A stretch of DNA of 64,000 nt, from assembly GCA_001417715.1 (NCBI GenBank), contig BBRT01000041.1, forward strand, positions 1-64,000, in the 5' to 3' direction. The position numbers and the translations under genes were made by a program. Every line of letters starts with the position of its first letter. The stretch's first letter is position 1. Under the pieces are notes generated by a model. The model was not told the DNA's origin. It did not search any database and saw only the letters and a program-made list of their open reading frames with translations. This document shows positions 5,926-64,000 of this stretch, piece by piece. This stretch comes from Candidatus Symbiothrix dinenymphae. GTDB lineage: Bacteria > Bacteroidota > Bacteroidia > Bacteroidales > Azobacteroidaceae.

Positions 5926-7591
<1,666 letters not shown>

Positions 7592-7604
7592 AAAACCTCT
7601 CAGT

Positions 7605-8885
7605 ATGCAAGAATTTATCAACACCCTATACACAGAAGATAATCTATTTATACTGACCGGATTAAATAGCAATTTAGTCGATTTGATATATTTAGACCCG
7701 CCGTTCAATTCCAAGCGGATTTATTCTGCGCCGATAGGCAGCAAGGCGGCCGGCTCAAGCTTCAAAGATATGTGGACGTGGGAGGATGTCAATGTGGCCT
7801 ATCTCAATACTTTGGCAGAAAATTACCCCGCATTGACGGATTTTATCGCTGCCACAGGTGTGATGCACAGCAAAGCGATGGCGGCATATTTAACTTATAT
7901 GGCGCAGCGCATCATCGAAATGCACCGCGTATTGAAAGACACAGGTTGTTTGTATTTGCATTGCGACCCTACGGCAAGCCATTATTTGAAAGTGGTGTTA
8001 GATGAAATTTTTGGCAAAGATAATTTTAGAAATGAAATTATATGGCATTATAAAACAACATTGAAAGCATCGTCAAGTCATTTGGGAAGAGACCACGATG
8101 TGATTTTGTGCTATGCAAAAAGTAATTTACATCAAATTCACCCCGACAGAACAGATTATCCGGCCAGTGAAAATACTTTGAAAAGATGGGGTAAATATGC
8201 TGATACAGAGGGTTTTGTGAGCAACAAACATTTTGCAGGCAGTAGTTCAACCATCATTGATACGAGTGATGACGAAAAAGGTTTCAACATTAATTACGGA
8301 ATACCGCGAGATGTGTGGTATATCCCACATTTAACAGGCAGCAGTAAAGAAAAAACAGGCTACCCGACCCAAAAGCCGCTTGCATTATTGCATCGCATTA
8401 TTAAAGCATCGTCAAACGAAGGCGATATTGTGCTTGACCCGTTTTGCGGCTGTGCCACCACTTGCGTGGCAGCCCAACAATTGGGTAGAAAATGGATTGG
8501 CATTGATATTGAAAAACAAGCCGCTGATATTTTGGTTGAAAGATTGAGTGATGATGCAGGGCTGTTTAAAAATTTTGTGCATACAGCGATTATACCTCAA
8601 CGAACTGATATACAAAAAGTTGAGCCGACAAAATCGGTTAAGGAGCGTCTCTACAAAGAGCAAAACGGCTTGTGCAATGCCTGCGGAACTGCATTTGACA
8701 TTTGGAATTTGGAGATAGACCACATCCGTCCGCGCTCGAAAGGCGGCGGTGACTGCTACGAAAATTATCAGTTATTGTGCAGCCATTGCAACAAAATGAA
8801 AAGCGCTAACCCAATGGAAAGTTTGCGGTTGAAAATCGAAACACGCAAAAAATTATTAAAGGAAAAAATAACTTTTGGAGAATAA
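7605..8885 (+). CDS. Adenine DNA methyltransferase fused to HNH nuclease, copy 1
   Basis: A 426-residue fusion, probably a self-contained restriction-modification enzyme. Motif IV DPPF lies at residues 31-34 and motif I DPFCGCATT near 278-286, with a motif X-like GYPTQKP between. This order is that of beta-class amino-methyltransferases, and DPPF favours N6-adenine. The C terminus (from about 357) is a zinc-type HNH domain: CNAC, then EIDHIRPRSKGGG, then LLCSHCNKMK. Start ATG 7605 is chosen because copy 3 begins with the same MQEFINTLYTED and copy 2 nearly so; an upstream extension would overlap the ABC-F gene. The central segment (about 145-265) differs from copies 2 and 3, as expected of a target-recognition domain. 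The HNH part is also the most divergent of the three. Confidence 0.88.
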   Translation: MQEFINTLYTEDNLFILTGLNSNLVDLIYLDPPFNSKRIYSAPIGSKAAGSSFKDMWTWEDVNVAYLNTLAENYPALTDFIAATGVMHSKAMAAYLTYMAQRIIEMHRVLKDTGCLYLHCDPTASHYLKVVLDEIFGKDNFRNEIIWHYKTTLKASSSHLGRDHDVILCYAKSNLHQIHPDRTDYPASENTLKRWGKYADTEGFVSNKHFAGSSSTIIDTSDDEKGFNINYGIPRDVWYIPHLTGSSKEKTGYPTQKPLALLHRIIKASSNEGDIVLDPFCGCATTCVAAQQLGRKWIGIDIEKQAADILVERLSDDAGLFKNFVHTAIIPQRTDIQKVEPTKSVKERLYKEQNGLCNACGTAFDIWNLEIDHIRPRSKGGGDCYENYQLLCSHCNKMKSANPMESLRLKIETRKKLLKEKITFGE

Positions 8886-8888
8886 AAT

Positions 8889-10124
8889 ATGGAAAACTTT
8901 ATCAACACCCTATACACAGAGGATAATCTATTTATACTGACCGGATTAAATAGCAATTTGGTTGATTTGATATATTTAGACCCGCCGTTTAACTCCAAGC
9001 GGATTTATTCGGCGCCGATAGGCAGCAAAGCGGCCGGCTCAAGCTTCAAAGATATGTGGACGTGGGAAGATGTGAATGTGGCCTATCTCAATACTTTGGC
9101 AAAAAAATATCCGGCATTGACAAAATACATTGCTGCGATAGGCGCGATACACAGCAAAGCGATGGCGGCGTATTTGACTTATATGGCGCAGCGCATCATC
9201 GAAATGCACCGCGTATTAAAAGACACAGGCAGTCTGTATCTGCATTGCGACCCTACCGCAAGCCATTTTTTGAAAGGGGTATTAGATGAAATTTTTGGCA
9301 AAAAAAATTTTAGAAATGAAATAATTTGGTGTTACAAACGACCGTCTGCACCGAAACAAAGACAGTTGCCACGCTTGCACGATGTGATATTTTGGTATTC
9401 AAAAGGTGAACAATGGACCTTTAATGGGGATGCAATTAGAGTGCCTTATGCTCAAAGCAGTCTCGACAGAGCAGGTTATGCGGCTAATGCGAGCAAAATG
9501 ACAGATGGCGGTGCTGTTGAATTGAAGGAAGATGGAAAATTGCCTGAAGACTGGTGGGATATTCCAATGTTAAAAGGAAATTCCAAAGAAGCCACGGGTT
9601 ACCCCACCCAAAAACCGCTTGCGCTGTTGCATCGCATCATTAGAGCATCGTCAAACGAGGGCGATATTGTATTTGACCCGTTTTGCGGCTGTGCCACCAC
9701 TTGCGTGGCTGCCCAACAATTGGGCAGAAAATGGATTGGCATTGATATTGAAAAACAAGCCGTCAGTATATTGATAGAGCGATTGAGCGATGATGCGGGA
9801 CTGTTTAAAAACTTTGTGAATACAACGCTCGTCCCGCAACGGACTGATATTCAGAGAATTGAGCCGATAAAATCGGTAAAAGAGCGTTTATACAAAGAGC
9901 AAAACGGTTTATGCACCGGTTGCAAACGACAATTTGAAATGCGAAATATGGAAATAGACCATATTATCCCCAAATCAAAAGGCGGCGGCAGTTATTACGA
10001 AAACTATCAGTTGCTGTGCGGGGCTTGCAACAAAAAGAAAAGCGACAAGCCAATGGAATACCTGCGTTCGTATATTGACAGCGAAGAGGAATTTTCAAAG
10101 AATAAAATAATTTTTGGAGAATAA
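8889..10124 (+). CDS. Adenine DNA methyltransferase fused to HNH nuclease, copy 2
   Basis: A 411-residue paralogue of copy 1, starting 3 bp after its stop. A GGAG ribosome-binding site lies inside the last codons of copy 1. Motif IV DPPF, motif X GYPTQKP and motif I DPFCGCATT are intact. The HNH domain has CTGC, MEIDHIIPKSKGGG and LLCGACNKKK. The first 80 or so residues are almost identical to copy 1, and the last 150 or so almost identical to copy 3. The middle (around RPSAPKQRQLPRLHD to DWWDIPMLKGNS) matches neither. Intact catalytic motifs argue against decay. Confidence 0.88.
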   Translation: MENFINTLYTEDNLFILTGLNSNLVDLIYLDPPFNSKRIYSAPIGSKAAGSSFKDMWTWEDVNVAYLNTLAKKYPALTKYIAAIGAIHSKAMAAYLTYMAQRIIEMHRVLKDTGSLYLHCDPTASHFLKGVLDEIFGKKNFRNEIIWCYKRPSAPKQRQLPRLHDVIFWYSKGEQWTFNGDAIRVPYAQSSLDRAGYAANASKMTDGGAVELKEDGKLPEDWWDIPMLKGNSKEATGYPTQKPLALLHRIIRASSNEGDIVFDPFCGCATTCVAAQQLGRKWIGIDIEKQAVSILIERLSDDAGLFKNFVNTTLVPQRTDIQRIEPIKSVKERLYKEQNGLCTGCKRQFEMRNMEIDHIIPKSKGGGSYYENYQLLCGACNKKKSDKPMEYLRSYIDSEEEFSKNKIIFGE

Positions 10125-10125
10125 T

Positions 10126-11367
10126 ATGCAAGAATTTATCAACACCCTATACACAGAGGATAATCTATTTATACTGACCGGACTAAATAGCAATTTGGTC
10201 GATTTGATATATTTAGACCCGCCGTTTAACTCCAAGCGGATTTATTCTGCGCCGATAGGCAGCAAGGCTGCCGGCTCAAGTTTCAAAGATATGTGGACGT
10301 GGGAGGATGTCAATGTGGCCTATCTCAATACTTTGGCAAAAAAATATCCGGCATTGACAAAATACATCGCTTCGGTCGGTGTGATACACAGCAAAGCGAT
10401 GGCGGCGTATTTGACTTACATGGCGCAACGCATCATCGAAATGCACCGCGTATTGAAAGACACCGGCAGTTTGTATCTGCATTGCGACCCTACGGCAAGC
10501 CATTATTTGAAAGTATTGTTGGACGAATTTTTTGGCAAAGAGAATTTTAGAAATGAGATTGTTTGGCATTACAGGCGTTGGACAGGCAAGGCAAAAAGAT
10601 TTCAGGCACTGCACGATATTATTTTTTTGTATTCAAAATCAGATAATTACACATTTAATCCGCTGTTTACCGAATATACGGAAGGTTCAAAAGAAAGAAA
10701 AGAACAGGGCGTTTTGCATCGATTTAAAAAAGGCGAAGAACCTGTTTTAGTCAGTGATAAAAATTTAGATGAAAAGGGCGTTAGAGAAAATGATGTATGG
10801 CAAATACCCTTTATCGCACCTTCTTCCAAAGAGCGCACAGGTTATCCCACCCAAAAACCGCTTGCGTTGTTGCATCGCATCATTAAAGCATCGTCAAACG
10901 AGGGCGATATTGTATTTGACCCGTTTTGCGGTTGTGCCACCACTTGCGTGGCAGCCCAACAATTGGGCAGGAAATGGATTGGCATTGATATTGAAAAACA
11001 AGCCGTCAGTATATTGATAGAGCGATTGAGCGATGATGCGGGACTGTTTAAAAACTTTGTGAATACAACGCTCGTCCCACAACGGACTGATATTCAAAGA
11101 ATTGAGCCGATAAAGCCGGTAAAAGAGCGTTTATACAAAGAGCAAAACGGCTTATGCACCGGTTGCAAACGACAATTTGAAATGCGAAATATGGAAATAG
11201 ACCATATTATCCCCAAATCAAAAGGCGGTGGCAGTTATTACGAAAATTATCAGTTGCTGTGCGGGGCTTGCAACAAAAAGAAAAGCGACAAGCCAATGGA
11301 ATATCTGCGTTCGTATATAGACAGCGAAGAGGAATTTTCAAAGAATAAAATAATTTTTGGAGAATAA
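10126..11367 (+). CDS. Adenine DNA methyltransferase fused to HNH nuclease, copy 3
   Basis: A 413-residue paralogue whose ATG (10126) is one base after the stop of copy 2, again with GGAG in the preceding gene's end. An in-frame ATG at 10114 would add four residues but overlaps copy 2. Motifs IV, X and I and the HNH residues match copy 2. From motif I to the C terminus only one residue appears to differ (KSVKE versus KPVKE), implying recent duplication or gene conversion. The central segment (RRWTGKAKRFQALHD to DVWQIPFIAPSS) is unique, so a different target site is expected. Confidence 0.88.
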   Translation: MQEFINTLYTEDNLFILTGLNSNLVDLIYLDPPFNSKRIYSAPIGSKAAGSSFKDMWTWEDVNVAYLNTLAKKYPALTKYIASVGVIHSKAMAAYLTYMAQRIIEMHRVLKDTGSLYLHCDPTASHYLKVLLDEFFGKENFRNEIVWHYRRWTGKAKRFQALHDIIFLYSKSDNYTFNPLFTEYTEGSKERKEQGVLHRFKKGEEPVLVSDKNLDEKGVRENDVWQIPFIAPSSKERTGYPTQKPLALLHRIIKASSNEGDIVFDPFCGCATTCVAAQQLGRKWIGIDIEKQAVSILIERLSDDAGLFKNFVNTTLVPQRTDIQRIEPIKPVKERLYKEQNGLCTGCKRQFEMRNMEIDHIIPKSKGGGSYYENYQLLCGACNKKKSDKPMEYLRSYIDSEEEFSKNKIIFGE

Positions 11368-13330: not shown

Positions 13331-13665
13331 CTAAATCTTTTTTTTCAGGTGCTATTTTTTGCAAACGGTGTTTTGTCCCGCAGGGACAGCACAATGCGGC
13401 GTTCTGTGTCCCGCAGGGACAGCACTTTATTAACCGTAGACTTCAGTCTACGGGAGTGACGGAGCCACCGCCTCCCCCAAGTCCCGCATGGGACGACACA
13501 TTGCTATTCAGCAAAATTGCACCCAATCTCAAGTGTCGTCCCATGCGGGACTAATGGAATCTGAGCATTTTTATACCGTAGACTAAAGTCTACGGTTAAT
13601 AAAGTGCTGTCCCTGCGGGACAAAACACCGTTTGCAAAAAATAGCACCTGAAAAAAAGATTTAGC
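13330..13665. mobile_element. MITE-like element, copy 2, with about 62-bp terminal inverted repeats
   Basis: The ends 13330-13392 and 13604-13665 are inverted copies that appear identical except for one base in a T/A run. They begin GCTAAATC and include TTTTTTGCAAACGGTGTTTT and the GTCCCGCAGGGACAGCAC dyad. The roughly 336-bp interior has further dyads (GTCCCGCATGGGAC, TAGACTTCAGTCTA) and no credible gene. Related copies lie at 1556-1805 and 26614-26893. This is the best preserved one and sits between two gene relics. Confidence 0.8.
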
Positions 13666-20484: not shown

Positions 20485-23400
20485 CTACTTTTTCACCACT
20501 TTCAAAGTCTGCCCTCCTATCTTCAACAGATAAACACCGTTAGGATATGCTGACAAATCTATGCGGCTTTCAGTGGTGCGGTGTTGTAATATCCCGATGT
20601 GGTTATATACCTGCACCTCTGCGCCGTTGGCGTTGCGGATGTTTACGATGCCGGTGGTGGGGTTGGGATAGACCGCCAACTGCTCTGCATCAATGCTTTC
20701 GATAGCAGTGCCTGCTGCGTTTACCGTTACCGTGCATGTAGCGGTATGGCTGCCGTCGGCGGTGGTTACGGTGATAGTGGCTGTGCCTGTGGCTTTTGCC
20801 GTTACCTTGCCCGTGCCATCCACTTCGGCAACGCCCGTGTTGCTGCTGCCCCACGTTACATTCTGGTTGGTAGCATTGCTCGGCGCAATGTTCGGCGTGA
20901 GAGTCTCCATGCCACCTACGACAAGCGTGGTTGTGCTCTTGTTGAGCGTTACGCCCGTTACCGCTACACTTGTTGCACTCACCGTTACCGTACAGGTTGC
21001 TGTCTTGTTGCCGTCTGCGGTGGTTACGGTAATAGTGGCTGTGCCTGCGGCTTTTGCCGTTACTACGCCATTGCTCACCGTTGCCACTGCCCCGTTGCTA
21101 CTGCTCCACGTTACATTCTGGTTGGTAGCATTGTTTGGCGCAATGTTCGGCGTGAGGGTCTCCTGACCGCCTATTACAAGCGTTGTTGAAGGTTTGTTGA
21201 GCGTTACGCCCGTTACCGCTACACTCGTTGCGCTCACCGTTACCTCACAGGTTGCTGTCTTGCTGCCGTCTGCGGTGGTTACGGTGATAGTGGCTGTGCC
21301 TGCGGTATGTGCCGTTACGACGCCATTGCTCACGCTGGCCACTGCCCCGTTGCTACTGCTCCACGTTACATTCTGGTTGGTAGCATTGTTTGGCGCAATG
21401 TTCGGCGTGAGGGTCTCCTGACCACCTATGACAAGCGTGGTTGTGGCCTTGTCGAGCGTTACGCCCGTTACCGCAACACTTGCTGCGCTCACCGTTACCG
21501 CACAGGTTGCTGTCTTGTTGCCGTCTGCGGTGGTTACGGTGATAGTGGCTGTGCCTGCGGTATGTGCCGTTACGACGCCATTGCTCACCGTTGCCACTGC
21601 CCCGTTGCTACTGCTCCACGTTACATTTTGGTTGGTGGCATTGTTCGGCGCAACGGTGGGCGTGAGGGTCTCCTGACCGCCGATAGCAAGCGTGGTTGAG
21701 GTCTTGTCGAGCGTTACGCCCGTTACCGCTATAGGTGTCACCGTTACGTCACAATTTGCTGTATAACTACCGTCGTCGGTGGTAACGGTGATAGTGGCTG
21801 TGCCTACGGCGACCGCCGTCACCTTGCCCGTGTTGTCCACGCTGGCCTTGCCATCGTCGCTGCTCACCCACGTTACACCCTGGTTAGTGGCATTGTTCGG
21901 CTCAACGGTGGCCGTGAGGGTTTCATCTGCACCCACTGCAAGCGAGAGCGTGCCCTTGTTGAGCGTTACGCCCGTTACATAAACGTCATACTTCGCATAG
22001 AGGGTGATGTTGGTGCTTACCACATCGGTGGCGAAGTTCCAAGCATTGGTTAAACCTGCCTCTTTGTACCAAGCCACAAAGGTGGAGCCGGACTTGGTAG
22101 GGGCGGCGGGGGCGGTGATGGTTGAGCCATCTACCACATCAGTGAATGCAGCAACCGCTGTGCCGCCATCGGTGTTGAAGGTGACCGTATAGTGGTTGAG
22201 CCATTTCGCATAGAGGGTGAGGTTGGCTGTTACCACATCGGTGGCGAAGTTCCACTGACTGGTGCAGCCTGCCTCTTTGTACCAGCCGCCAAAGGTGAAG
22301 CCGCCTTTGGTAGGTGGGGAGGGTGCGCTGATGTGTGCGCCATCTGCCACATTATCGAGCGAACTTACCGCTGTGCCGCCATCGGTGTCGAACGTTACCG
22401 TATAGGTGCTCACCGTCTCGATTTTGAGGTTGTCAAGGGCTATAAGGATGCCGGTCTCGGCGTGAAGATAATCCGTAAATAATATCAGCCGCTTCACTGT
22501 ACCGGCGTATTGGGCGGCGGATAAGTTGACGGTAGCCGTTTGCCAACTGCCTTTAACGTTGAATGCTCCAAGAATAACGCCGACAGGACTAGTCATCATA
22601 TTCGGTACTCTGCTCGTATCCGACAGATTACAAAATAGGGATGAGGAATAGTCAGCGGCGAGTTTATAGTCAAACGTCAATCGGAAGTTAGTGTTACTAC
22701 CGACAGTGGGGAACTCCACATCAAAAAAGAGGTGACAGTAGGGGTTTACTCCTTCAGGCGCGATAGTCTCTGGGTATCTTTCCAAAACGATACCTCCGCC
22801 CCCATCTTTACCCTCTGTGAAGCTAGTGTGCCAGACAGCTATGCCGTAAGAAAGCCTCCGCCATGTGTCAGGAAGAAAAGTATCCTCGGTGAACGGAACC
22901 GTCCGCTTGGGCACCGTTACTGCCGCACCGTCCACCACAAAGGTGTATATTGAGCCTATAGGATTGGCGAATGAGGAAAGGTCTTTTACTATTACCGTAT
23001 ATTCACCGGCAGTGTTAAAGGTAATGTTGGCTCTATTCCCATCCAATGTATAGTCGGTGCCGGGACTACATTCTTCGATATTGAGTAGCGGCTTGTAAAC
23101 GGTCACAGTAGAACCAGTGGTGGTAGCGCGGTCATCGAGCAATTGCGCCACGCTAGTGCTCACCCATTGCGTGGGCATCAGTTGGTAGTATGCGTAGAGA
23201 GAATAAGAACCTACCGGTTTGCTGTTCACCAAATCCAACTGCGCTTGCATGGACATCATACCCCCTGAAAAGTCAACATCACCGGTCAGGGATGTAAGGG
23301 AGGCAAAACCATTCACTGCCACAAGAGAGGCGTTGTTGCCAGCATTCAAGTTAGTTACACTTGAGCAATCAACGAACGTGAGCGTATCGGCATCCGTGTT

Positions 23401-25935
23401 TTGGATAGTTAACTCTGCCAATTGCGTCTCGCTGCTGCCATCAACGGTAATGCTCTTTGCCCTGCAATCTTGTATAATCACCTTCGTAAAGTGGTCGTTC
23501 ATATCGGTGGTGGTGCAGGTAATGGTGTAAGTGCCGGCGGCGGTGTAACTGATATTGTTGGTTATATCATAGATGTCTGTGCCAATGGCCGTGAAGGTGG
23601 CTGTTTGTATGTCGTCGCCGTAATCTACGGTGATACTTTTCCCTGCGGGGATGTCGACATACAACTTAGGCTTTTGCACCGTCGGGTCGGTGATGCGGAA
23701 GGTTACTTTCACGTTGGGGGAAGGCATATCGCCCACCTCAAAGGTCTGTTTCACCGACGCACCAGTCAGCGCCGCGTTTTCGAGCGTTACCTCGTACTGC
23801 CACTGGTCAGTGTTGAACTTAATCTTGCCGTCGCCTTGCGTCCAGGTGTAATCACCTCCCGCTGCCACGCTCCAATCGGCAAACCGCTTTTTCCGCACGC
23901 TGACGGTGGAGTTGTTGTATGTGTCGTCTATCACGTGCTCAACGTTTATATCCGTTACCACCTGCGGCAGGGTTTGCACCCCGTAGGTAACAGAGGCAGT
24001 TCCGCTTTGGTCTGTTATGTCTTTGAGTTGTGACAGCGTGAGGCGATTGTTGCTCACGTTGAGGGTTGTGAGCGTGGGCGTAGAGAGCGTGAGGCTTGTG
24101 AGTTCCTTGTTGCTGAGGTCAAGCGTATAGAAAGCGCAAGAACCATCCACAGCGGCAATGCTCACCGTGTAGTCGCCCGCAGCAGCGTAGGTGTGCGAGA
24201 GCGTGAGGGACGTACCCGTACCCTTGCCTGTGTAGGTTTCTGTGTTGCCATCGTCCCAATCGACGGTGAAGTCTCTATTGTTCGCCTCCAGCGTAAAGGA
24301 CTTGGCGGTGGTGGCGGCTGTCCAGTCAGAGGTGATGGACTGTACGCCCATGCCTACGTTGAAGTTGTATATCACCTTGCCGCCTGAAACGTCAGTACTG
24401 GTCAATTCCATTGTGTAGTAGCCCGCCGCATCAAAAGTAATGCCTGTGCCTTGTGTGTAGGTGAAGCCGCTGCCGCTGCTGAGGGTGGTGCCCGCGCTGT
24501 TCTTCACCGTTTCATTCGTGGCAACCATATCCACCAGGGGAATGGGCACGTTTGCCGCACCGCTGAACCACCTGTTTTGGTCACCAATGACGGCACCAAC
24601 CTGGGTCGTCTGCTTGATGTTGTACGCCCCTTGCAGGCTGATGGCGTTATTACTACAATTAATATCGTGCCGTGTGCCAATCTCTACGGTGTCTATGCGG
24701 TTGTTCTGACATTCCACCAGAATGCTGGCACTGCTGAAACGGTGGTAGCCGTTGGTGGCAGTGCTGAGTTGCAGCGTTGTGAGGCGGTTGTAGCCGCAGT
24801 TCAAGCGTCCGAGCCAGAGATTGTTGCGCACATCGAGGGTGGCGAGGTTGTGGCTCTCGCAAAGCAGCCGCTCCAAGGCGGGGGCTTTGGTTACATCTAA
24901 GGCAGTGAAGACGGAGTGACCGTCGTTGTGGTTGGCATTAAGTGCCGTGAGCAGTGTGCCAAAGGGGGCGGTGATGCTTACGTTTTTGCTGCCTGCGGTG
25001 GTATATTTGTGCACCAGAGTGAGGGGCGACATACCTGTGGTGACGTTGATGGGTGCTTTTTCGCCCGTGCCGTAGTAGGTTTCCGTAGTGCCATCACCCC
25101 AATCGACGTCAAAGGGCTGTCCGTAGGAGGCACTCAGGGAGAAGACGGTGGAGTCCGTGCTGCCCTTGGTGTCTAAGGTGATGTCTATCTGCTGGTCGGT
25201 GTAGCCGCTCACTACGGTGACGTAGTTGTTTACAGTGTGAGAGCCGCCGGACCCGATGTTCTCCACTACAACACGGTAGGCACCTTCGGTCAAAAAGGTG
25301 ATGTCGTTGCCGCTGATGGTGTAATTTGCGCCGTCATTGGCGATGACAGTGTTGTTTTTACTGATTAGCGTAGTATTGTAAGTGTTGCTGCCACCCTTGA
25401 GGGTTACAGGATTGCCCACAGTGGCAATAGAGGTAAAGGTTTGTGTGGTGATACCACTGACGGGCGAAAACTTGCTGCCCAGCGCGTTGAGTGCCGCCGC
25501 ACTCAGGTAGTTGTCGCCTACGTCCACGGTGAGTGAGCCGTTGGTGTTGAGTATTAGGTTGCCGTCGGTGATGAGGTTGTTATAGCACTTCAACGAGGTG
25601 AGGCTGTGTGCCTTGCTTAGGTCCACCGCCAGCACGCTTTGGTTGTTGATTTCTAACACGGTGAGGTTGTCGCCTGCAACGATGGCGGTGTAAGCACCTT
25701 GTTTGTCGTAAACAGAGGCATAAGGGTCAGGGTATGCCGAGCCGCTCGTGAAAGTTTCTACAGGGCTGCCATCGCCCCAATCCACCGTAATGTTACCACT
25801 CGCGGTGTAAGAGAAGTTTTTGGCACCGCTTGTCCACGCAATGCGGACAGTGTCTGCCGCCTGCACATTTTCTGCTGTGAGTAGCAAGGCAGCCGTAGCC
25901 GCCATCAAAAAGATTTTTTTTGTTTTCATTATCAT
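20485..25935 (-). CDS. Giant T9SS-exported surface protein with PKD-like/LRR, InlB-type and BIG2 repeats
   Basis: About 1,815 residues. A second ATG (25929) begins a signal peptide, MKTKKIFLMAATAALLL. The N-terminal 1,000 residues hold PKD-like units (DWGDGSPVETF, DWGDGTTETYY, DWDDGNTETYT, DYGDDIQTATF) alternating with short LRR-like stretches (LTSLTLSTPTLTTLNVSNN). A jelly-roll-like region follows, then two InlB/Listeria-Bacteroides repeats (TVTFDTDGGTAVSSL, TVTFNTDGGTAVAAF). Five BIG2 Ig-like domains starting VTGVTL come next. The end is a T9SS sorting domain (VYPNPTTGIVNIRN to LKIGGQTLKVVKK). It is likely displayed on or released from the cell surface as an adhesin or matrix protein. The start lies 6 bp after the stop of a SusC fragment. 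Confidence 0.9.
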   Translation of the reverse strand: MIMKTKKIFLMAATAALLLTAENVQAADTVRIAWTSGAKNFSYTASGNITVDWGDGSPVETFTSGSAYPDPYASVYDKQGAYTAIVAGDNLTVLEINNQSVLAVDLSKAHSLTSLKCYNNLITDGNLILNTNGSLTVDVGDNYLSAAALNALGSKFSPVSGITTQTFTSIATVGNPVTLKGGSNTYNTTLISKNNTVIANDGANYTISGNDITFLTEGAYRVVVENIGSGGSHTVNNYVTVVSGYTDQQIDITLDTKGSTDSTVFSLSASYGQPFDVDWGDGTTETYYGTGEKAPINVTTGMSPLTLVHKYTTAGSKNVSITAPFGTLLTALNANHNDGHSVFTALDVTKAPALERLLCESHNLATLDVRNNLWLGRLNCGYNRLTTLQLSTATNGYHRFSSASILVECQNNRIDTVEIGTRHDINCSNNAISLQGAYNIKQTTQVGAVIGDQNRWFSGAANVPIPLVDMVATNETVKNSAGTTLSSGSGFTYTQGTGITFDAAGYYTMELTSTDVSGGKVIYNFNVGMGVQSITSDWTAATTAKSFTLEANNRDFTVDWDDGNTETYTGKGTGTSLTLSHTYAAAGDYTVSIAAVDGSCAFYTLDLSNKELTSLTLSTPTLTTLNVSNNRLTLSQLKDITDQSGTASVTYGVQTLPQVVTDINVEHVIDDTYNNSTVSVRKKRFADWSVAAGGDYTWTQGDGKIKFNTDQWQYEVTLENAALTGASVKQTFEVGDMPSPNVKVTFRITDPTVQKPKLYVDIPAGKSITVDYGDDIQTATFTAIGTDIYDITNNISYTAAGTYTITCTTTDMNDHFTKVIIQDCRAKSITVDGSSETQLAELTIQNTDADTLTFVDCSSVTNLNAGNNASLVAVNGFASLTSLTGDVDFSGGMMSMQAQLDLVNSKPVGSYSLYAYYQLMPTQWVSTSVAQLLDDRATTTGSTVTVYKPLLNIEECSPGTDYTLDGNRANITFNTAGEYTVIVKDLSSFANPIGSIYTFVVDGAAVTVPKRTVPFTEDTFLPDTWRRLSYGIAVWHTSFTEGKDGGGGIVLERYPETIAPEGVNPYCHLFFDVEFPTVGSNTNFRLTFDYKLAADYSSSLFCNLSDTSRVPNMMTSPVGVILGAFNVKGSWQTATVNLSAAQYAGTVKRLILFTDYLHAETGILIALDNLKIETVSTYTVTFDTDGGTAVSSLDNVADGAHISAPSPPTKGGFTFGGWYKEAGCTSQWNFATDVVTANLTLYAKWLNHYTVTFNTDGGTAVAAFTDVVDGSTITAPAAPTKSGSTFVAWYKEAGLTNAWNFATDVVSTNITLYAKYDVYVTGVTLNKGTLSLAVGADETLTATVEPNNATNQGVTWVSSDDGKASVDNTGKVTAVAVGTATITVTTDDGSYTANCDVTVTPIAVTGVTLDKTSTTLAIGGQETLTPTVAPNNATNQNVTWSSSNGAVATVSNGVVTAHTAGTATITVTTADGNKTATCAVTVSAASVAVTGVTLDKATTTLVIGGQETLTPNIAPNNATNQNVTWSSSNGAVASVSNGVVTAHTAGTATITVTTADGSKTATCEVTVSATSVAVTGVTLNKPSTTLVIGGQETLTPNIAPNNATNQNVTWSSSNGAVATVSNGVVTAKAAGTATITVTTADGNKTATCTVTVSATSVAVTGVTLNKSTTTLVVGGMETLTPNIAPSNATNQNVTWGSSNTGVAEVDGTGKVTAKATGTATITVTTADGSHTATCTVTVNAAGTAIESIDAEQLAVYPNPTTGIVNIRNANGAEVQVYNHIGILQHRTTESRIDLSAYPNGVYLLKIGGQTLKVVKK
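20700..21970. repeat. Tandem BIG2-coding repeats of about 255 bp
   Basis: Five direct repeats code for the BIG2 domains of the giant protein. The middle three are nearly identical at DNA level, for example the recurring CTCCACGTTACATTCTGGTT. Such repeats favour recombination that changes domain number. Confidence 0.8.
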
Positions 25936-26298: not shown

Positions 26299-26480
26299 AA
26301 AATCTACTTTTAATTGTCAATAAATTTGTTGTCGCGAGGGCTTGCGGGTCAAGCCCGCAAAGACGATTCGTGATAACGGCGGCAAAGGTAGTAAATGTTT
26401 TTAAATATTCAATGCTTTCGTTGAAAATTTAACATTTTTTTTGCGTTTATTTTTTTTTGTCATTACGGGCATGCCTCGAA

Positions 26481-26578
26481 AAACCTGTTAGGTCTCGAAG
26501 ACCTAACAGGTTTAACATCCGGATGTTGAACAACAGAGCAATGCAGAACAGGGGATTGCGGGTCAAGCCCGCAATGAC
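26481..26578. repeat. Two short palindromic repeats, AACCTGTTAGGTC and TTGCGGGTCAAGCCCGCAA types
   Basis: The dyad AAACCTGTTAGGTC...GACCTAACAGGTTT spans 26481-26513. A TTGCGGGTCAAGCCCGCAA-type repeat spans 26550-26578, with the linker GTTGAACAACAGAGCAATG. Both types recur between genes (33787-33816, 59314-59342) and inside coding sequences (30715-30812, 60222-60248, 62326-62358, 62758-62784). Confidence 0.8.
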
Positions 26579-26613
26579 AGAACGGGCTGAACGCCCGAAC
26601 ACGAGGAGAAATA

Positions 26614-26893
26614 CCGTTTTGTCCCGCAGGGACAGCACTTTATTAACCGTAGACTTTAGTCTACGGTATAAAAATGCTAAGATTCCATTAGTCCCGCATG
26701 GGACGGCACTTTATTAACCGTAGACTTCAGTCTACGGTATACACAATGTGTCGTCCCATGCGGGACTTTGGGGTGTGGGTTCGTCACTCCCGTAGACTGA
26801 AGTCTACGGTTAATAAAGTGCTGTCCCTGCGGGACATAGATAGCCGCATTGTGCTGTCCCTGCGGGACAAAACACCGTTTGCGAAAAATTTGC
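26614..26893. repeat. MITE-like palindromic element, copy 3
   Basis: Contains the GTCCCGCAGGGACAGCACTT end, paired TAGACTTTAGTCTA and TAGACTTCAGTCTA dyads, GTCCCGCATGGGAC twice in opposite orientation, and a right end with a duplicated GTGCTGTCCCTGCGGGAC unit. The terminal repeats are less complete than in copy 2. With the shorter palindromes it occupies most of the gene-free stretch 26299-27079, whose remainder holds the galM promoter (TACCTTTG at 26926-26933) and a leader of about 145 bp. Confidence 0.75.
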
Positions 26894-30300: not shown

Positions 30301-30311
30301 AATTTGTGTGT

Positions 30312-32861
30312 ATGGCAAGTTTTAAGGACAGAACATCCGAATTTGACCTTCGCTCGAAGGTTAAAGATGCCTATTTCAGCAAATTTAAGGTTGAAATAGA
30401 CTCTGACAGGATTGATTTTCTTGTTCATTCGCCTAAGAGTCTGTTTGCCGAAACTTTCCTATGGGCAGAATCCAAAAAAGACATTGCCGAAATCAATAAG
30501 ACTTTTGCGCAACTCATACTGACCATTAAGCGGCAGTATGACAACGATGTGATGCCGCCAAAGTATCTCGGTATTTTCGATAAGGAGAAAATTGCTTTTA
30601 TCGAGTTTCATCACATTGTGCCGATTTTTTGCACCAATGATTTTAATTGGAACGAAACACCGTCAAGTGTTTCAAAGAAGACGGAACTTATTGTAGCAAA
30701 ATATCTTGTACCTTGTCATTGCGGGCTTGACCCGCAATCCCCTGAAAAGGAGCCGAATGTTGGGCAACAGAGCGATGTAGGGCAGGGGATTGCGGGTCAA
30801 GCCCGCAATGACGGTGGTAGTGGGATGGTGGTTTTTAATTTTGCCACTGATGAAAAAGAGTTGCGCGAATTTATTGCTGAAAATTTTGTTGCCGGACAGG
30901 AAAATACCAACAAAATACAAATCACAAAAAACAATTTTGTCATCATTTACAACAAATGGCTCAAAGAGGTTTGGAACACCATTCAACTGTCGGTGGAAGA
31001 CCAAAAAGATTTGTATATTCGCAATGTGAACGAAGCCGATTTTTTTCGCGCCGATGTGCTCAGCGTAAACAACAAGACGCTCGAAGAAAAACTGCAAATC
31101 ATCCTTCAAGACACTTTTTACAAGTCGAAAGTGCATATCGAGGGCAGGATTAGAGCACTCACGGACGAAATCCGGTTTAAAGACGGCGGCAAGGCACATA
31201 CCCGATTTTGGAATAAATATGAGCGACCGCCGCGCGGCGAGTATTACCAATTTATTTTTGACCGCCGCGATTTGCTGATTCCGCAAAATATTCGTGAACG
31301 AAAAGGCGCATTTTTTACGCCGCAAATCTGGGTACGCAAGTCGCAGGAATATCTGGCAAAAACGTTTGGCAACGATTGGCAAAGCGAGTATTATGTTTGG
31401 GATTGTTGCGCCGGAACGGGCAATTTGGAAGTGGGGCTGACCAACACTTACAATGTGTGGGCATCCACGCTCGACCACGCCGATGTAGCAATTATGCAAT
31501 CCGATGGCAATCTGCTGCCCGAACATGTGTTTCAATTCGATTTTTTGAATGACAGTTTCGACAAATTGCCCGAAAGTTTGCGCGATGTGATTACTGACCC
31601 GGAAAAACAGCGGAGACTTTTGATTTACATAAACCCACCTATCGCAGAGGCATCGGCAGGCATCGGCAGGGGTGCAAACAAAAAAGATGTAGCAAAAACA
31701 AAAGCGGCAGCCCGATACGGCAGGGAATTAGGCAAGGCGAAAAACGAACTTTTCGCACAATTTCTGATTAGAATTTACCGAGAACTGCCGCACGCAAGTT
31801 TGGGGATGTTCAGCACGCTAAAATATCTAAATTCTACCAATTTTGTTAATTTTAGGAGTATCTTTAATGCCGATTTTTTGACCGGTTTTATTGTTCCTGC
31901 CGACACATTTGACAATGTAGCCGGACAATTTCCGTATGCTTTTCTTGTTTGGCGGTTTTCCAACAGACCAATACCACAAGAGTTTGAGATAGAAGTGTTT
32001 GATAAAAAAGATAATTTTATAAAGCGAAAAAAATATTTTACAAACCAAGGAAAATATATCACCGATTGGATAAAAACCTACACTTCAATTGAGAAAAAAA
32101 ACATTGGCTATTTGTGTTATTCAAGTACTGACTTTCAGCATAATAACGAATTACGAATAAGTCCGTTTATCCCAACGAGCCATATTTCTACGCTTGCATT
32201 GGACAAAGATAATTTGTTGACGGCTTGTGTCTATTTTGCAGTTCGTCATTGTATCGAGGCAACATGGCTTAACGACCGCGACCAATTTTTATATCCGAAT
32301 GACGGTTACAAAACCGATACTGAATTTCAAAATGATTGTTTAATTTATACATTGTTTCATAATCAAAACAAAATAGTATCTGTTGGTTATGTCAATCATT
32401 GGCTCCCATTTGGGCCGCAGGATGTGAAGGCAAAGGACAATTTCAAATCCACATTTATGGCAGATTTTTTGGCGGGAAAGAAAACAACTTTTGGCGGCGG
32501 TGGCAGTGGTGGTTATGCAAAACAAGTGGACGTGTTTATGGTGTGCGAACCGGAACCCCAATTTGAATACGGCAGAAAACCGAGAGAATTTTCCCCCGTC
32601 GCGCAAGCCGTTTTCGATGCAGGAAAAGCATTGTGGGCATACTACCACGAAACGCTCAAAAGCGATGCCGCCGGCAATGTCAATGCCTCGCTGTACGAAA
32701 TTCGCGAATATTTCAAAGGCAGAAACGGAGCCGGCAGAATGAACAGCAGCTCGACCGACGAACAATTCGCGGCATTAGACACCAATTTGAAAAACGAACT
32801 GAAAAAATTGGGCCTGAAAATACAGCCTAAAGTGTATGAATATGGGTTTTTGAAAGAGTAG
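30312..32861 (+). CDS. Type IIG-like restriction-modification protein, motif IV reads NPPI
   Basis: About 849 residues from ATG 30312. The N terminus resembles a PD-(D/E)xK nuclease (D35 and E53-S54-K55 in LWAESKK). A gamma-type methyltransferase follows: motif X-like GAFFTPQIWV, motif I WDCCAGTGNL, and motif IV at residues 441-444. There the expected NPPY is NPPI, which would remove the aromatic residue that stacks on the flipped base. The C-terminal third is probably the recognition domain. It is homologous along its length to the genes at 60.0-64.0 kb. An in-frame palindrome (30715-30812) adds about 35 residues near 135-168. Whether it is active is doubtful. Confidence 0.8.
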   Translation: MASFKDRTSEFDLRSKVKDAYFSKFKVEIDSDRIDFLVHSPKSLFAETFLWAESKKDIAEINKTFAQLILTIKRQYDNDVMPPKYLGIFDKEKIAFIEFHHIVPIFCTNDFNWNETPSSVSKKTELIVAKYLVPCHCGLDPQSPEKEPNVGQQSDVGQGIAGQARNDGGSGMVVFNFATDEKELREFIAENFVAGQENTNKIQITKNNFVIIYNKWLKEVWNTIQLSVEDQKDLYIRNVNEADFFRADVLSVNNKTLEEKLQIILQDTFYKSKVHIEGRIRALTDEIRFKDGGKAHTRFWNKYERPPRGEYYQFIFDRRDLLIPQNIRERKGAFFTPQIWVRKSQEYLAKTFGNDWQSEYYVWDCCAGTGNLEVGLTNTYNVWASTLDHADVAIMQSDGNLLPEHVFQFDFLNDSFDKLPESLRDVITDPEKQRRLLIYINPPIAEASAGIGRGANKKDVAKTKAAARYGRELGKAKNELFAQFLIRIYRELPHASLGMFSTLKYLNSTNFVNFRSIFNADFLTGFIVPADTFDNVAGQFPYAFLVWRFSNRPIPQEFEIEVFDKKDNFIKRKKYFTNQGKYITDWIKTYTSIEKKNIGYLCYSSTDFQHNNELRISPFIPTSHISTLALDKDNLLTACVYFAVRHCIEATWLNDRDQFLYPNDGYKTDTEFQNDCLIYTLFHNQNKIVSVGYVNHWLPFGPQDVKAKDNFKSTFMADFLAGKKTTFGGGGSGGYAKQVDVFMVCEPEPQFEYGRKPREFSPVAQAVFDAGKALWAYYHETLKSDAAGNVNASLYEIREYFKGRNGAGRMNSSSTDEQFAALDTNLKNELKKLGLKIQPKVYEYGFLKE
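30715..30812. repeat. Palindromic repeat inserted in frame in the type IIG-like gene
   Basis: The arms 30715-30743 and 30784-30812 are perfect 29-bp inverted copies, each itself palindromic (TTGCGGGCTTGACCCGCAA). Translation through it gives HCGLDPQSPEK ... GIAGQARNDG with no stop. The paralogue at 60.0-62.5 kb lacks residues at this place. Confidence 0.85.
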
Positions 32862-59300: not shown

Positions 59301-59353
59301 AGGCGCAACCGACAGGGGATTGCAGGTCAAGCCCGCAATGACGAGGACATTTT

Positions 59354-60023: not shown

Positions 60024-62489
60024 TTAAGCCTTCAAAAATTCGTATTCATACACTTTGGGTTCAATTTTTTTTGCAAGGATGCTTAATTTGTCGCGCAAAG
60101 TGCCGATGAGTTTGGTATATTGCGCATCGGTGCTGGTGTTGTTCATTTTGCCTTTGTCGTTGCGCTCTTGAAAATGCTCGCGAATGTCGTATAGTGAGGC
60201 ATTTACATTGTATAGCCCTCTGTCATTGCGGGCTTGACCCGCAATCCCATGATAGTATTTCCAAAGTTCGCGACCGGCATCGAAGACGGCGGTTGCGGCC
60301 GGTGAAAATTCGCGTTTGACGTATTCTTTTTTCTCCAATTGCTCGAAAAGAGTGGCGTAGCCGTTTGGCACCACTTTCCCATTTAAAAAACTCAACAAAA
60401 CGTGGCTCTCAAATTTATCGCGTGCATTGACTTCCTGTTCCGAAAAAGGAATCCAATGATTAACCCCGTATTTTGATTGTATGTTATTGTTGAAAAGCGC
60501 ATAGGCGAGACAATCGTTTTGAAACTCAAGGTCTTTCTCCCATTTTTTGACAGGATAAAGAAATTGGTCGCGGTCGTTCAGCCAAGTGGCGAGAATGACT
60601 TTGCGCACAGAGAAGTAAATGCACATTGCTATCAAATTATTCACTGTGATGGGTGTCGTATGGTCTTTTATATCATCGGTGGTAATGCGAACCTGCCCAT
60701 TGTGTTGGAAATCATTCTTATTGTTATGAAGAATGCCGATAGGATAATCTTTTTTATCGTGAAATTTGCGAAGCCAATCATTTATATAGGCATTTTCTTC
60801 GCTATAAGCATGGAATGTTTTTGTGCCGATAGCCTTCCCTTTGCTGTCAAAAACAGCCAATTCTTCTTTTTCAAATAGTTTCTTTTCCGATAAATTCCAA
60901 ATCATAAAGCCAATAGGAAACTCACCTTTCACATTGTCAAACGTTTTAGCGGGCACAACAAAACCTTTCAAAAATTCTGCACAAAAAAATTCGCGAAATT
61001 TTGAAAAATTCGGTGCTTGCAGAATTTTCAAAGTTGAAAATTCTGCAAGCACCGAATAGGGAATTTTGTCTTTTATTCTGGCGAAAAATTGCGCAAAAAG
61101 TTCATTAGAAGCATTGCCAATCTTCTTATTATAGTCGTGAGTGGCATGTTCAAGCGCAACTTTTGTTTTAAATCCCCGCCCTAATCCCGTCCCGGCTTCT
61201 GCATACGGCGGATTGATATAAACCACCAATTTTTTACGTTTTTCGGGGTCATTGATAATATTCTGCAATCCTTGCGGCAGTTTAGAAAAATCATCATTGA
61301 GAAAATCAAATTGAAAAACATGGTCGTGCAGCAGATTTGCACCGTTTTCTATGCGGTCGTGCATCACATCTACATCTTGTTTATCGAGTGTAGAAGCCCA
61401 AATATTGTATTTATTGGTTAGTCCCGCGAGCAAATTTCCGGTTCCTGCGGCACAATCCCAGACATAATACTCATCCTGCCAATCTTCGCCCAGCACATCG
61501 GCAAGGTATCGCTGCGAAAGTTCCACCCAAATTTGCGGGGTAAAAAAACTGCCTTTGCGTTCGCGCACATCTTGCGGAACCAGCAAATCGCGCCGCTCCA
61601 CAATGTAATCCCAATATTCCTCGCGTGGCGGACGTTCGTATTTGTTCCAAAAAAGTGTGTGCGCTTTTTGTTTGTCTGAGAAATATACCTGGCTCGAAGC
61701 AAACATGCCGCTTTCGTCAATCCGGCGGTTTGCCTCGTAATAATTGGATTTTAGCAATATGAACAATTTCTCTTTCAAAGTTTTGTTTTCCTGCGAAAGC
61801 AAATCGGCAAGATAAAAATCGCCGTCAATAATGCCATTGCGTTTGGCTGCATCCCAATCAACCACAATGGTGGGCTTGACAGTTTGCAACCATTTGTTAT
61901 AAATGATGATGAAATTGTTTTTGTCGATTTTAATTTTTGAAACATCCGATTTTCCAACAATGAAATTTTCGCGGATAAATCGTTTCAAATCCTGTGCATC
62001 GCGCTCAAAATCAAAGATATAAGTTTCCCAAGGGGTATCGTTATTTAATATCTTGCTAATTTGCTCGTAGACCTGTTGAAACTCTTTTGTTTCAGTATTT
62101 GATGGCGTAATTTTCCAATTAAAATCATTTTGATAGAAAATGTGTTGAATTTCGGAATAGGGCACGAAAGCGATTTTTTCGCAGTCGAAACAGCCGAGAA
62201 AGGGTGGGGGCATCATCTTGTCAAATGTGCGGGCTTTGCCAATGGTGAGCACCAATTGCGTGAGCATTGCCACTATATCGGTGGGAGCGGCTTTGGCTTC
62301 TGCCCACAGCAAATATTCGTCATTGAAACCTGTTAAGTCTTCAAGACTTGACAGGTTTGAACTTTTACGTTTCACTTTAACCGCAAAATCAATGAAGCCG
62401 ACAATCTTGTCGCAATCGAACCCCTCAAAGAAATCGGATGCCACACTATTTTTCAGTTCTTCCTCTCTAATATTGAAATATTTCATCAT
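60024..62489 (-). CDS. Type IIG-like restriction-modification protein, tandem copy B
   Basis: An 821-residue protein. The N-terminal region resembles a PD-(D/E)xK nuclease (D34 and E64-A65-K66 in LLWAEAK). The methyltransferase follows: KGSFFTPQIWVE, motif I WDCAAGTGNLLAG (about 343) and motif IV NPPYAEAG (about 425), all intact. The C-terminal third (WLNDRDQFLYPVKKWEKD) is probably the recognition domain. Two palindromic repeats are read in frame: SNLSSLEDLTGF at about 44-55, nine residues before the ExK, and GIAGQARND near the C terminus. It is nearly identical to the copy upstream. tonB follows. Confidence 0.85.
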   Translation of the reverse strand: MMKYFNIREEELKNSVASDFFEGFDCDKIVGFIDFAVKVKRKSSNLSSLEDLTGFNDEYLLWAEAKAAPTDIVAMLTQLVLTIGKARTFDKMMPPPFLGCFDCEKIAFVPYSEIQHIFYQNDFNWKITPSNTETKEFQQVYEQISKILNNDTPWETYIFDFERDAQDLKRFIRENFIVGKSDVSKIKIDKNNFIIIYNKWLQTVKPTIVVDWDAAKRNGIIDGDFYLADLLSQENKTLKEKLFILLKSNYYEANRRIDESGMFASSQVYFSDKQKAHTLFWNKYERPPREEYWDYIVERRDLLVPQDVRERKGSFFTPQIWVELSQRYLADVLGEDWQDEYYVWDCAAGTGNLLAGLTNKYNIWASTLDKQDVDVMHDRIENGANLLHDHVFQFDFLNDDFSKLPQGLQNIINDPEKRKKLVVYINPPYAEAGTGLGRGFKTKVALEHATHDYNKKIGNASNELFAQFFARIKDKIPYSVLAEFSTLKILQAPNFSKFREFFCAEFLKGFVVPAKTFDNVKGEFPIGFMIWNLSEKKLFEKEELAVFDSKGKAIGTKTFHAYSEENAYINDWLRKFHDKKDYPIGILHNNKNDFQHNGQVRITTDDIKDHTTPITVNNLIAMCIYFSVRKVILATWLNDRDQFLYPVKKWEKDLEFQNDCLAYALFNNNIQSKYGVNHWIPFSEQEVNARDKFESHVLLSFLNGKVVPNGYATLFEQLEKKEYVKREFSPAATAVFDAGRELWKYYHGIAGQARNDRGLYNVNASLYDIREHFQERNDKGKMNNTSTDAQYTKLIGTLRDKLSILAKKIEPKVYEYEFLKA
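60222..60248. repeat. Palindrome read in frame in type IIG copy B
   Basis: GTCATTGCGGGCTTGACCCG and the following 7 bases form the TTGCGGGCTTGACCCGCAA-type repeat. It encodes GIAGQARND. The paralogue at 30.3-32.9 kb has different sequence here. Confidence 0.8.
62326..62358. repeat. AACCTGTTAAGTC palindrome read in frame in type IIG copy B
   Basis: A 33-bp dyad with one mismatch, of the same type as at 26481-26513 and 33787-33816. It encodes SNLSSLEDLTGF just before the putative nuclease ExK motif. The paralogue at 30.3 kb is shorter here. Confidence 0.8.
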
Positions 62490-62559: not shown

Positions 62560-64000
62560 TTAATTTATTAAAAATCCAAATTCATACACTTTTGGTTCAA
62601 TTTTTTTTGCAAGGATGTTTAATTTGTCGCGCAAATTGCTAATTAATTCGGTATATTGCGCATCGGTGCTGGTGTTGTTCATTTTGCCTTTGTCGTTGCG
62701 TTCTTGAAAATGCTCGCGAATGTCATATAGTGAGGCATTTACATTGTATGTCCCTCTGTCATTGCGGGCTTGACCCGCAATCCCATGATAGTATTTCCAA
62801 AGTTCGCGTCCTGCATCGAAGACGGCGGTTGCGGTGGGTGAAAATTCGCGTTTGACGTATTCTTTTTTCTCTAATTGCTCGAAAAGAGTGGCGTAGCCGT
62901 TTGGCACCACTTTCCCATTTAAGAAACTCAACAAAACGTGACTCTCAAATTTATCTCGTGCATCGACTTCCTGTTCCGAAAAAGGAATCCAATGATTAAC
63001 CCCGTATTTTGATTGTATGTTATTGTTGAAAAGCGCATAGGCGAGACAATCGTTTTGAAACTCAAGGTCTTTCTCCCATTTTTTGACAGGATAAAGAAAT
63101 TGGTCGCGGTCGTTCAGCCAAGTGGCAGGAATGACTTTGCGCACAGCAAAGTAAGTGCACATTTCTATCAAATTATTCACTGTGATGGGTGTCGTGTGGT
63201 CTTTTATGTCATCGGTGGTAATACGAACCTGAATGTTGTGCTGAAAATCATTCTTATTGTTATGAAGAATGCCGATAGGATAATCTTTTTTATCGTGAAA
63301 TTTGCGAAGCCAATCATTTATATAGGCATTTTCTTCACTGTAAGCATGGAATGTTTTTGTGCCGATAGCGTTCCCTTTGCTGTCAAAAACAGCCAATTCT
63401 TCTTTTTCAAATAGTTTCTTTTTTGATAAATTCCAAATCATAAAGCCAATGGGAAACTCACCTTTCACATTGTCAAACGTTTTAGCGGGCACAACAAAAC
63501 CTTTCAAAAACTCTGCACAAAAAAAATCGCGGAATTTTGAAAAATTCGGTGCCTGCAGAATTTTTAACTTTGAAAATTCTGCAAGCACCGAATAGGGAAT
63601 TTTGTCTTTTATTCTGGCGAAAAATTGCGCAAAAAGCTCATTAGAAGCATTGCCAATCTTCTTATTGTAGTCGTGAGTGGCATGTTCAAGCGCAACTTTT
63701 GTTTTAAATCCACGCCCTAATCCCGTTCCGGCTTCCGCATACGGCGGATTGATATAAACTACCAATTTTCTTTGTTTCTTGGGGTCATTGATGATATTCT
63801 GCAAGCCTTGCGGCAGTTTAGAAAAATCATCGTTTAGAAAATCGAACTGAAAAACATGGTCGTGCAAAAGATTTGCGCCGTTCGCAATGCGGTCGTGCAT
63901 TATATCTACATCGGCTTTATCAAGCGTCGATGCCCAAATGTTGTATTTGTTGGTCAGTCCCGCAAGCAAATTGCCCGTTCCGGCGGCACAATCCCAAATG
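62560..64000 (-). CDS. Type IIG-like restriction-modification protein, tandem copy C, partial
   Basis: The C-terminal 480 or so residues of a second copy; its start lies beyond the window. The frame is open to base 64000 and begins there inside motif I (WDCAAGTGNLLAG). Motif IV NPPYAEAG is intact. It is nearly identical to copy B, with scattered substitutions and the same GIAGQARND insertion (62758-62784), so that insertion predates the duplication. The recognition region differs little, so both copies probably share one target. The last residues (EFGFLIN) differ from copy B. Confidence 0.85.
   Translation of the reverse strand, partial: IWDCAAGTGNLLAGLTNKYNIWASTLDKADVDIMHDRIANGANLLHDHVFQFDFLNDDFSKLPQGLQNIINDPKKQRKLVVYINPPYAEAGTGLGRGFKTKVALEHATHDYNKKIGNASNELFAQFFARIKDKIPYSVLAEFSKLKILQAPNFSKFRDFFCAEFLKGFVVPAKTFDNVKGEFPIGFMIWNLSKKKLFEKEELAVFDSKGNAIGTKTFHAYSEENAYINDWLRKFHDKKDYPIGILHNNKNDFQHNIQVRITTDDIKDHTTPITVNNLIEMCTYFAVRKVIPATWLNDRDQFLYPVKKWEKDLEFQNDCLAYALFNNNIQSKYGVNHWIPFSEQEVDARDKFESHVLLSFLNGKVVPNGYATLFEQLEKKEYVKREFSPTATAVFDAGRELWKYYHGIAGQARNDRGTYNVNASLYDIREHFQERNDKGKMNNTSTDAQYTELISNLRDKLNILAKKIEPKVYEFGFLIN

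Follow-up and report, generated by a model that had tools for sequence, protein, structure and literature searches.

In-frame insertions of palindromic DNA into protein-coding genes have so far been best known from Rickettsia. The closest described relatives of the element considered here form the CGTC superfamily of REPs, defined by Di Nocera et al. (2013, PMC3733652), whose members have a CGTC or TGTC head, a stem of 8–9 bp that starts from AT and a loop of 4–5 bases, occur as head-to-head dimers and have no dedicated transposase. The Rickettsia palindromic elements RPE-6 and RPE-4 were assigned to CGTC-1 and CGTC-4, respectively, Bacteroidetes were listed among the host phyla, and most of these REPs are intergenic, with copies inside genes, including those for tRNA synthetases and DNA repair, already reported (PMC3733652). 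As that study places RPEs in the superfamily, names Bacteroidetes hosts and finds REPs inside genes, we count the kind of event described below as known. Another set of short palindromes, the GTAG REPs with their RAYT transposases (REPtrons, BIMEs), likewise forms dimers and reaches high copy number.

The window, i.e. the whole 64-kb stretch of DNA that was analysed, lies in a genome (G000; 3.52 Mb, 91% complete) of a probable termite-gut member of the Bacteroidales, the genus of which includes bacteria of that habitat as well as the genomes G009 and G031, the latter being the near relative or sister genome used in most comparisons. One of its type IIG restriction-modification genes is interrupted, in the N-terminal part, by a palindromic dimer that leaves the frame open (Table 1). 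The earlier note had described a perfect 29-bp inverted pair read through as about 35 residues without a stop; both the perfect pairing and the stop-free frame hold, while the arms are 30 bp long and the reading covers 33 codons.

Table 1. Positions in the window of the insert, its host gene and the other REP units
Feature	Positions	Strand	Remarks
Type IIG restriction-modification gene with insert	30306..32861	+	851 aa, GTG start, intact frame; family from fold match
Putative PD-(D/E)xK nuclease residues D37 ... E55-A-K57	30414..30476	+	Invariant family columns of the alignment
98-bp head-to-head REP dimer, read in frame as CHCGLDPQSPEKEPNVGQQSDVGQGIAGQARND	30715..30812	+	Perfect arms, 33 codons, stop-free
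Left 30-bp arm, first REP unit	30715..30744	+	Head TGTC (T at 30714), stem ATTGCGGG/CCCGCAAT, loop CTTGA
Spacer between arms	30745..30782	+	38 bp, conserved among dimers genome-wide
Right 30-bp arm, second REP unit	30783..30812	-	Inverted
Methyltransferase motif IV, NPPI	31632..31643	+	Host gene and G031 orthologue; NPPY in every other homologue aligned at the site
REP unit, 3 mismatches	26337..26364	-	Outside listed genes
REP unit, exact	26551..26578	-	Outside listed genes; flanking spacer resembles 30745-30782
REP unit, 1 mismatch	59315..59342	-	Between genes ending at 59300 and 59354
REP unit in frame (GIAGQARND)	60222..60249	+	Near C terminus of type IIG paralogue 60024-62489 (-)
REP insertion at the identical site (GIAGQARND)	62758..62785	+	Tandem type IIG paralogue 62560-63999+ (-)

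Judged by its head, stem and loop, the insert consists of two CGTC-tagged REP units joined head to head. The consensus of the unit is [C/T]GTC, followed by an 8-bp stem (ATTGCGGG/CCCGCAAT) around the 5-base loop CTTGA and by the tail CCC; the base preceding GTC is C or T in 110/111 units, about half each, and the 8-bp stem starting from AT with a 5-base loop makes CGTC-2 the structurally nearest family. With the superfamily it shares these features together with the short tail, the predominance of head-to-head dimers among paired units and the in-gene copies; as to an associated transposase, a search of G000 for the Y1_Tnp class found no gene. It differs in its Bacteroidales host, in the high proportion of sampled units that lie in ORFs (about 38%) and in its tail, which is CCC rather than CCA: most units end in CCC and 13/111 have A at the third base, whereas most, though not all, of the published tails fit CCA. 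The likeness to the Rickettsia palindromic elements that had been noticed earlier is borne out by the head, stem and loop, which are those of the superfamily that includes RPE-4 and RPE-6 (PMC3733652). As with RPE-4 and RPE-6 (and RPE-1), palindromic repeats lie in frame within many protein genes, although the lineage is different, the sequence family presumably so, and the genome has 3.5 Mb, unlike the reduced genomes of the intracellular Rickettsia. The GTAG REP/RAYT systems are set apart by their head, GTAG instead of YGTC, and by their transposase, no Y1_Tnp gene having been found in G000.

The insert is present in G000 and G031 only and is missing from about 55 other homologues, which were drawn from the genus, the order, Bacteroidota and other phyla. 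In the closest empty homologue (L135) the site reads AKFLYPKNKSQDNSIVIYEFYF, whereas the gene of G000 has AKYLV-insert-GGSGMVVFNF at the same place. The claim that the repeat can enter a gene without breaking its frame is thus upheld by the open frame and by the repeat-free homologues. The observation that, according to the earlier note, would have pointed to an ancestral protein sequence merely resembling the repeat, namely the same residues in distant orthologues, was made in none of these homologues; together with the nucleotide identity to intergenic copies, which extends to the spacer, and with no point found in its favour, this leaves that origin with almost no credence. According to the AlphaFold model, residues 137-171, which correspond to the insert, have pLDDT < 50 and lie between a helix (124-134) and a strand (174-178), and so the model makes the insert a disordered loop of the host protein.

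The family of the host protein was assigned from a fold search, because scans against Pfam, NCBIfam and PADLOC and a sequence search of the PDB gave nothing significant. Its best PDB fold match is the type IIG enzyme BpuSI (probability 1.00, TM about 0.2), followed by DrdV and MmeI; with so low a TM, the type IIG arrangement of fused nuclease, N6-adenine methylase and recognition domains is putative. Methylase motif I and an NPP motif IV are present, and residues D37, E55 and K57 fit a PD-(D/E)xK nuclease, as far as the invariant columns of the alignment suggest. The protein has the fold match, the methylase motifs and the putative nuclease motif in common with BpuSI, DrdV and MmeI; it stands apart from them by its lack of Pfam, NCBIfam and significant PDB sequence matches and by NPPI in motif IV, a change that may mean loss or alteration of activity. 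Two other regions of the window were also recorded: a tandem array of three genes for DNA methyltransferases with a fused, HNH-like C terminus (7491-11367), genes that are near-identical at their ends and different in the middle, as if recognition domains were being swapped; and a gene on the minus strand (20485-25935) with internal tandem repeats of 255 bp, the product of which has 1816 aa, probably with Ig-like (Big_2) domains, and a sorting-like C-terminal region. An Rfam scan of the window found only a tRNA.

Downstream of the insert, dN is 0.017 and dS 0.142 between G000 and G031 (682 codons), and the resulting dN/dS of about 0.12 indicates that the frame beyond the insert is under purifying selection; within the insert the two genomes differ at three positions, all nonsynonymous, which are too few for a separate test. 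These values bear on the possibility that the insert silences its host, i.e. that expression or activity is blocked by the hairpin or by the extra loop and that the gene is dying, its frame still intact by coincidence. The predicted mRNA hairpin at the insert is strong (30 bp, -71 kcal/mol, z = -11.6) and, if it forms, could impede translation or draw RNase III to the transcript; NPPI as motif IV is confined to the gene with the insert and its orthologue in G031, and other paralogues could cover the function of the enzyme. Neither species has nonetheless lost the frame since the two diverged, dN/dS is as given above, and similar inserts occur in IleRS, AlaRS, SecDF, DnaX and further presumably essential genes, so that we regard silencing as unlikely.

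The earlier note had also stated that the repeat family occurs elsewhere between genes and that both type IIG copies at 60-64 kb carry it as GIAGQARND. The first statement agrees with the three minus-strand copies of Table 1 that are taken as intergenic, being outside listed genes. As for the second, the in-frame reading is correct, both paralogues having GIAGQARND some 70 residues before their C terminus, but the two copies do not count as separate evidence. The same insertion is found in a further G000 paralogue (L086, contig C96) and in a paralogue of G031 (L050) and is absent from most homologues; because the site is the same in each paralogue, the 60-64 kb copies and the C96 copy are best counted as a single event, with the duplication of the gene probably following the insertion. 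Another interspersed repeat family, with the palindromic motifs TGTCCCGCAGGGACAGCAC and CCGTAGACTTTAGTCTACGG, was seen between genes at 1548-1802, 13400-13661 and 26613-26875.

Searching the 3.52-Mb genome with a 23-bp core and up to 3 mismatches gave 186 forward and 184 reverse matches, compared with 0 for a reversed control pattern. There are 40 perfect head-to-head dimers, mostly of exactly 98 bp and with the conserved spacer. Among 395 Bacteroidota scanned, G000 had 344 matches and the next genome (G427) 24, with a handful elsewhere, and a search for a related element in plasmids and phages found none. Counts of in-gene copies rest on a 653-kb sample made up of the window and 40 further G000 stretches around exact copies, which holds 135 units in 98 clusters, 32 of them pairs. 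The collecting and counting of copies proposed at the outset revealed a pattern much larger than the window had displayed: 51/135 units (about 38%) are in frame inside 37 long ORFs that have coding signal to either side, and a Pfam domain lies on the same strand in all 30 of the in-frame ORFs scanned. The genes concerned include those for IleRS, AlaRS, SecDF, YidC, a MurG-like glycosyltransferase, a Mur ligase and DnaX, as well as NuoB, NuoCD, MetH, GltB, UvrD/PcrA, QueA, LpxB and ThrA, and the insert sits inside a domain in some and in linkers or near the ends in others. A simple classifier placed 29 clusters in frame within coding sequence; in 5 others the flanks are coding on the same strand but the frame is broken, and gene boundaries may account for some of these. 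The frame is kept, then, in 29/34 clusters with same-strand coding signal on both sides. Random positions scored as in-frame in 43% of cases and clusters in 30%, so genes are only mildly avoided.

Several of these insertions can be resolved by comparison with relatives. In IleRS, G000 and G031 have an 11-aa insertion, RHCGLDPQSPA, in a loop that is empty in G008 (96% identical), in G006 (90%) and in all other relatives aligned. For AlaRS, the unit stands in place of a similarly long loop in G000, G008 and G031 (mutated to HCWLDPQ); G007 has a similar unit in the same loop and the other relatives an unrelated one. QueA (L069:7447-8823, -) has two tandem units in G000 versus one in G031, a 36-bp in-frame difference. 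A MetH-like gene (L097:15411-19085, -) has five in-frame units, one full dimer among them.

Considering which peptides the insertions encode, the 42 in-gene clusters are divided unevenly among four readings, HCGLDPQSP (20), GIAGQARND (16), VIAGLTRNP (3) and GLRVKPAMT (3). The first two account for 36/42 clusters, or 34/40 when two paralogue duplicates are removed; against an even expectation the bias has p = 3e-6 (before that removal), and against 2/3, the expectation for a whole dimer, it is moderate, with p about 0.005-0.008. In mean hydropathy the preferred peptides range from -0.6 to -1.3 and the avoided ones from +0.1 to +0.6. G031 gives 34/40 in the preferred readings, a sample that is not independent of G000, and in a third species, G012, with 10/65 units in ORFs, the bias was not seen (3/8 clusters); as a general pattern across species it is not established. 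The inserted residues themselves are free to change: for 14 in-gene units compared between G000 and G031, pN/pS is 1.2 within the units and 0.18 in the flanking codons (Fisher p = 0.002), and the residues are thus unconstrained. Low pS in the units (0.03 versus 0.13 in the flanks) was considered as a sign of gene conversion, which we do not claim, detection by similarity to the consensus biasing pS. Units within genes are shared with G031 in 18/20 cases and other units in 6/18 (p = 0.0005); paralogues may be involved in three of the comparisons for units within genes, and a tandem difference in copy number accounts for one of the two absences there.

The frame preference could also stem from the insertion site, through the codon phase of the target or through descent of in-gene copies from one another, instead of from selection on the peptide. 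The result for G012 is in line with this, as is the fact that a full dimer offers two open HCGL-type readings per VIAGL-type one, so that the neutral expectation may be 2/3 and not 1/2; the hydrophilic nature of the preferred peptides, which the avoided ones lack, and the same proportion in G031, albeit in a dependent sample, argue against it, and on balance we hold it to be improbable, though with an appreciable chance of being right. Removal or skipping of the element after transcription, by RNA processing or ribosome bypass, such that it never appears in protein, might be suspected from its structure, strong hairpins being a trait of known bypassed segments. Copies within genes nevertheless remain free of stops in their frame and shun the hydrophobic readings, which skipping would make needless, and we judge such skipping to be very improbable.

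How the element moves can be approached through two occupied/empty pairs, L067 and L081, at which G000 has 136 and 126 bp more than G031, bases beyond the dimer included and the direction of change unpolarised; at L067, where the difference is intergenic, this is so because the matches of G008 and G006 stop short of the site. A target-site duplication was found at neither in comparison with G031. The dimer at L067:9932-10067 has an inverted extension on its flanks (AAAAAGTCT ... AGACTTTTT), the right half of which matches the T run of the target, and this might hint at hairpin-templated copying. Mobilisation by a RAYT was rejected: among transposases only the Y1_Tnp class was searched for in the 91% complete genome of G000, with none found, and among relatives within the genus the presence of Y1_Tnp does not follow the number of repeats.

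Our preferred reading, to which we give a probability of about 85%, is that of a non-autonomous palindromic DNA whose insertions are filtered by selection for those that are frame-neutral and harmless. It builds on the presence/absence pattern, the open frame, the selection downstream and the lack of constraint on the inserted residues, all of which are demonstrated by comparison of the sequences. The element, presumably moved by an enzyme, would have entered the N-terminal part of the type IIG gene in the common ancestor of G000 and G031, in the sole reading frame of that strand without a stop anywhere in the dimer. If translated, as we infer, it would add a 33-residue hydrophilic, disordered linker from helix 124-134 to strand 174-178, and it would persist because it is harmless. 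Genome-wide, frame-preserving insertions that add a hydrophilic loop would survive and those that break the frame or are hydrophobic would mostly be lost, the frame bias probably being due to selection rather than to insertion preference. Beyond this, the element may be a standing source of new protein segments, in that insertions into essential enzymes are kept if their peptide is one of the two hydrophilic ones, copies within genes last longer than those between genes and selection on the peptide shapes the persistence of copies; this extension is tentative, and we think it somewhat more probably wrong than right.

The kind of event is known, and G000 is unusually rich in it. What the genome offers is a Bacteroidales genus with in-frame insertions in many genes expected to be essential and with sister genomes that have empty sites. 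The encoded peptides, HCGLDPQSP, GIAGQARND and alike, can mislead the annotation of proteins. With occupied and empty sites both available, one can measure which kinds of insertion are retained, what importance the peptide has and by what mode the element enters a site.
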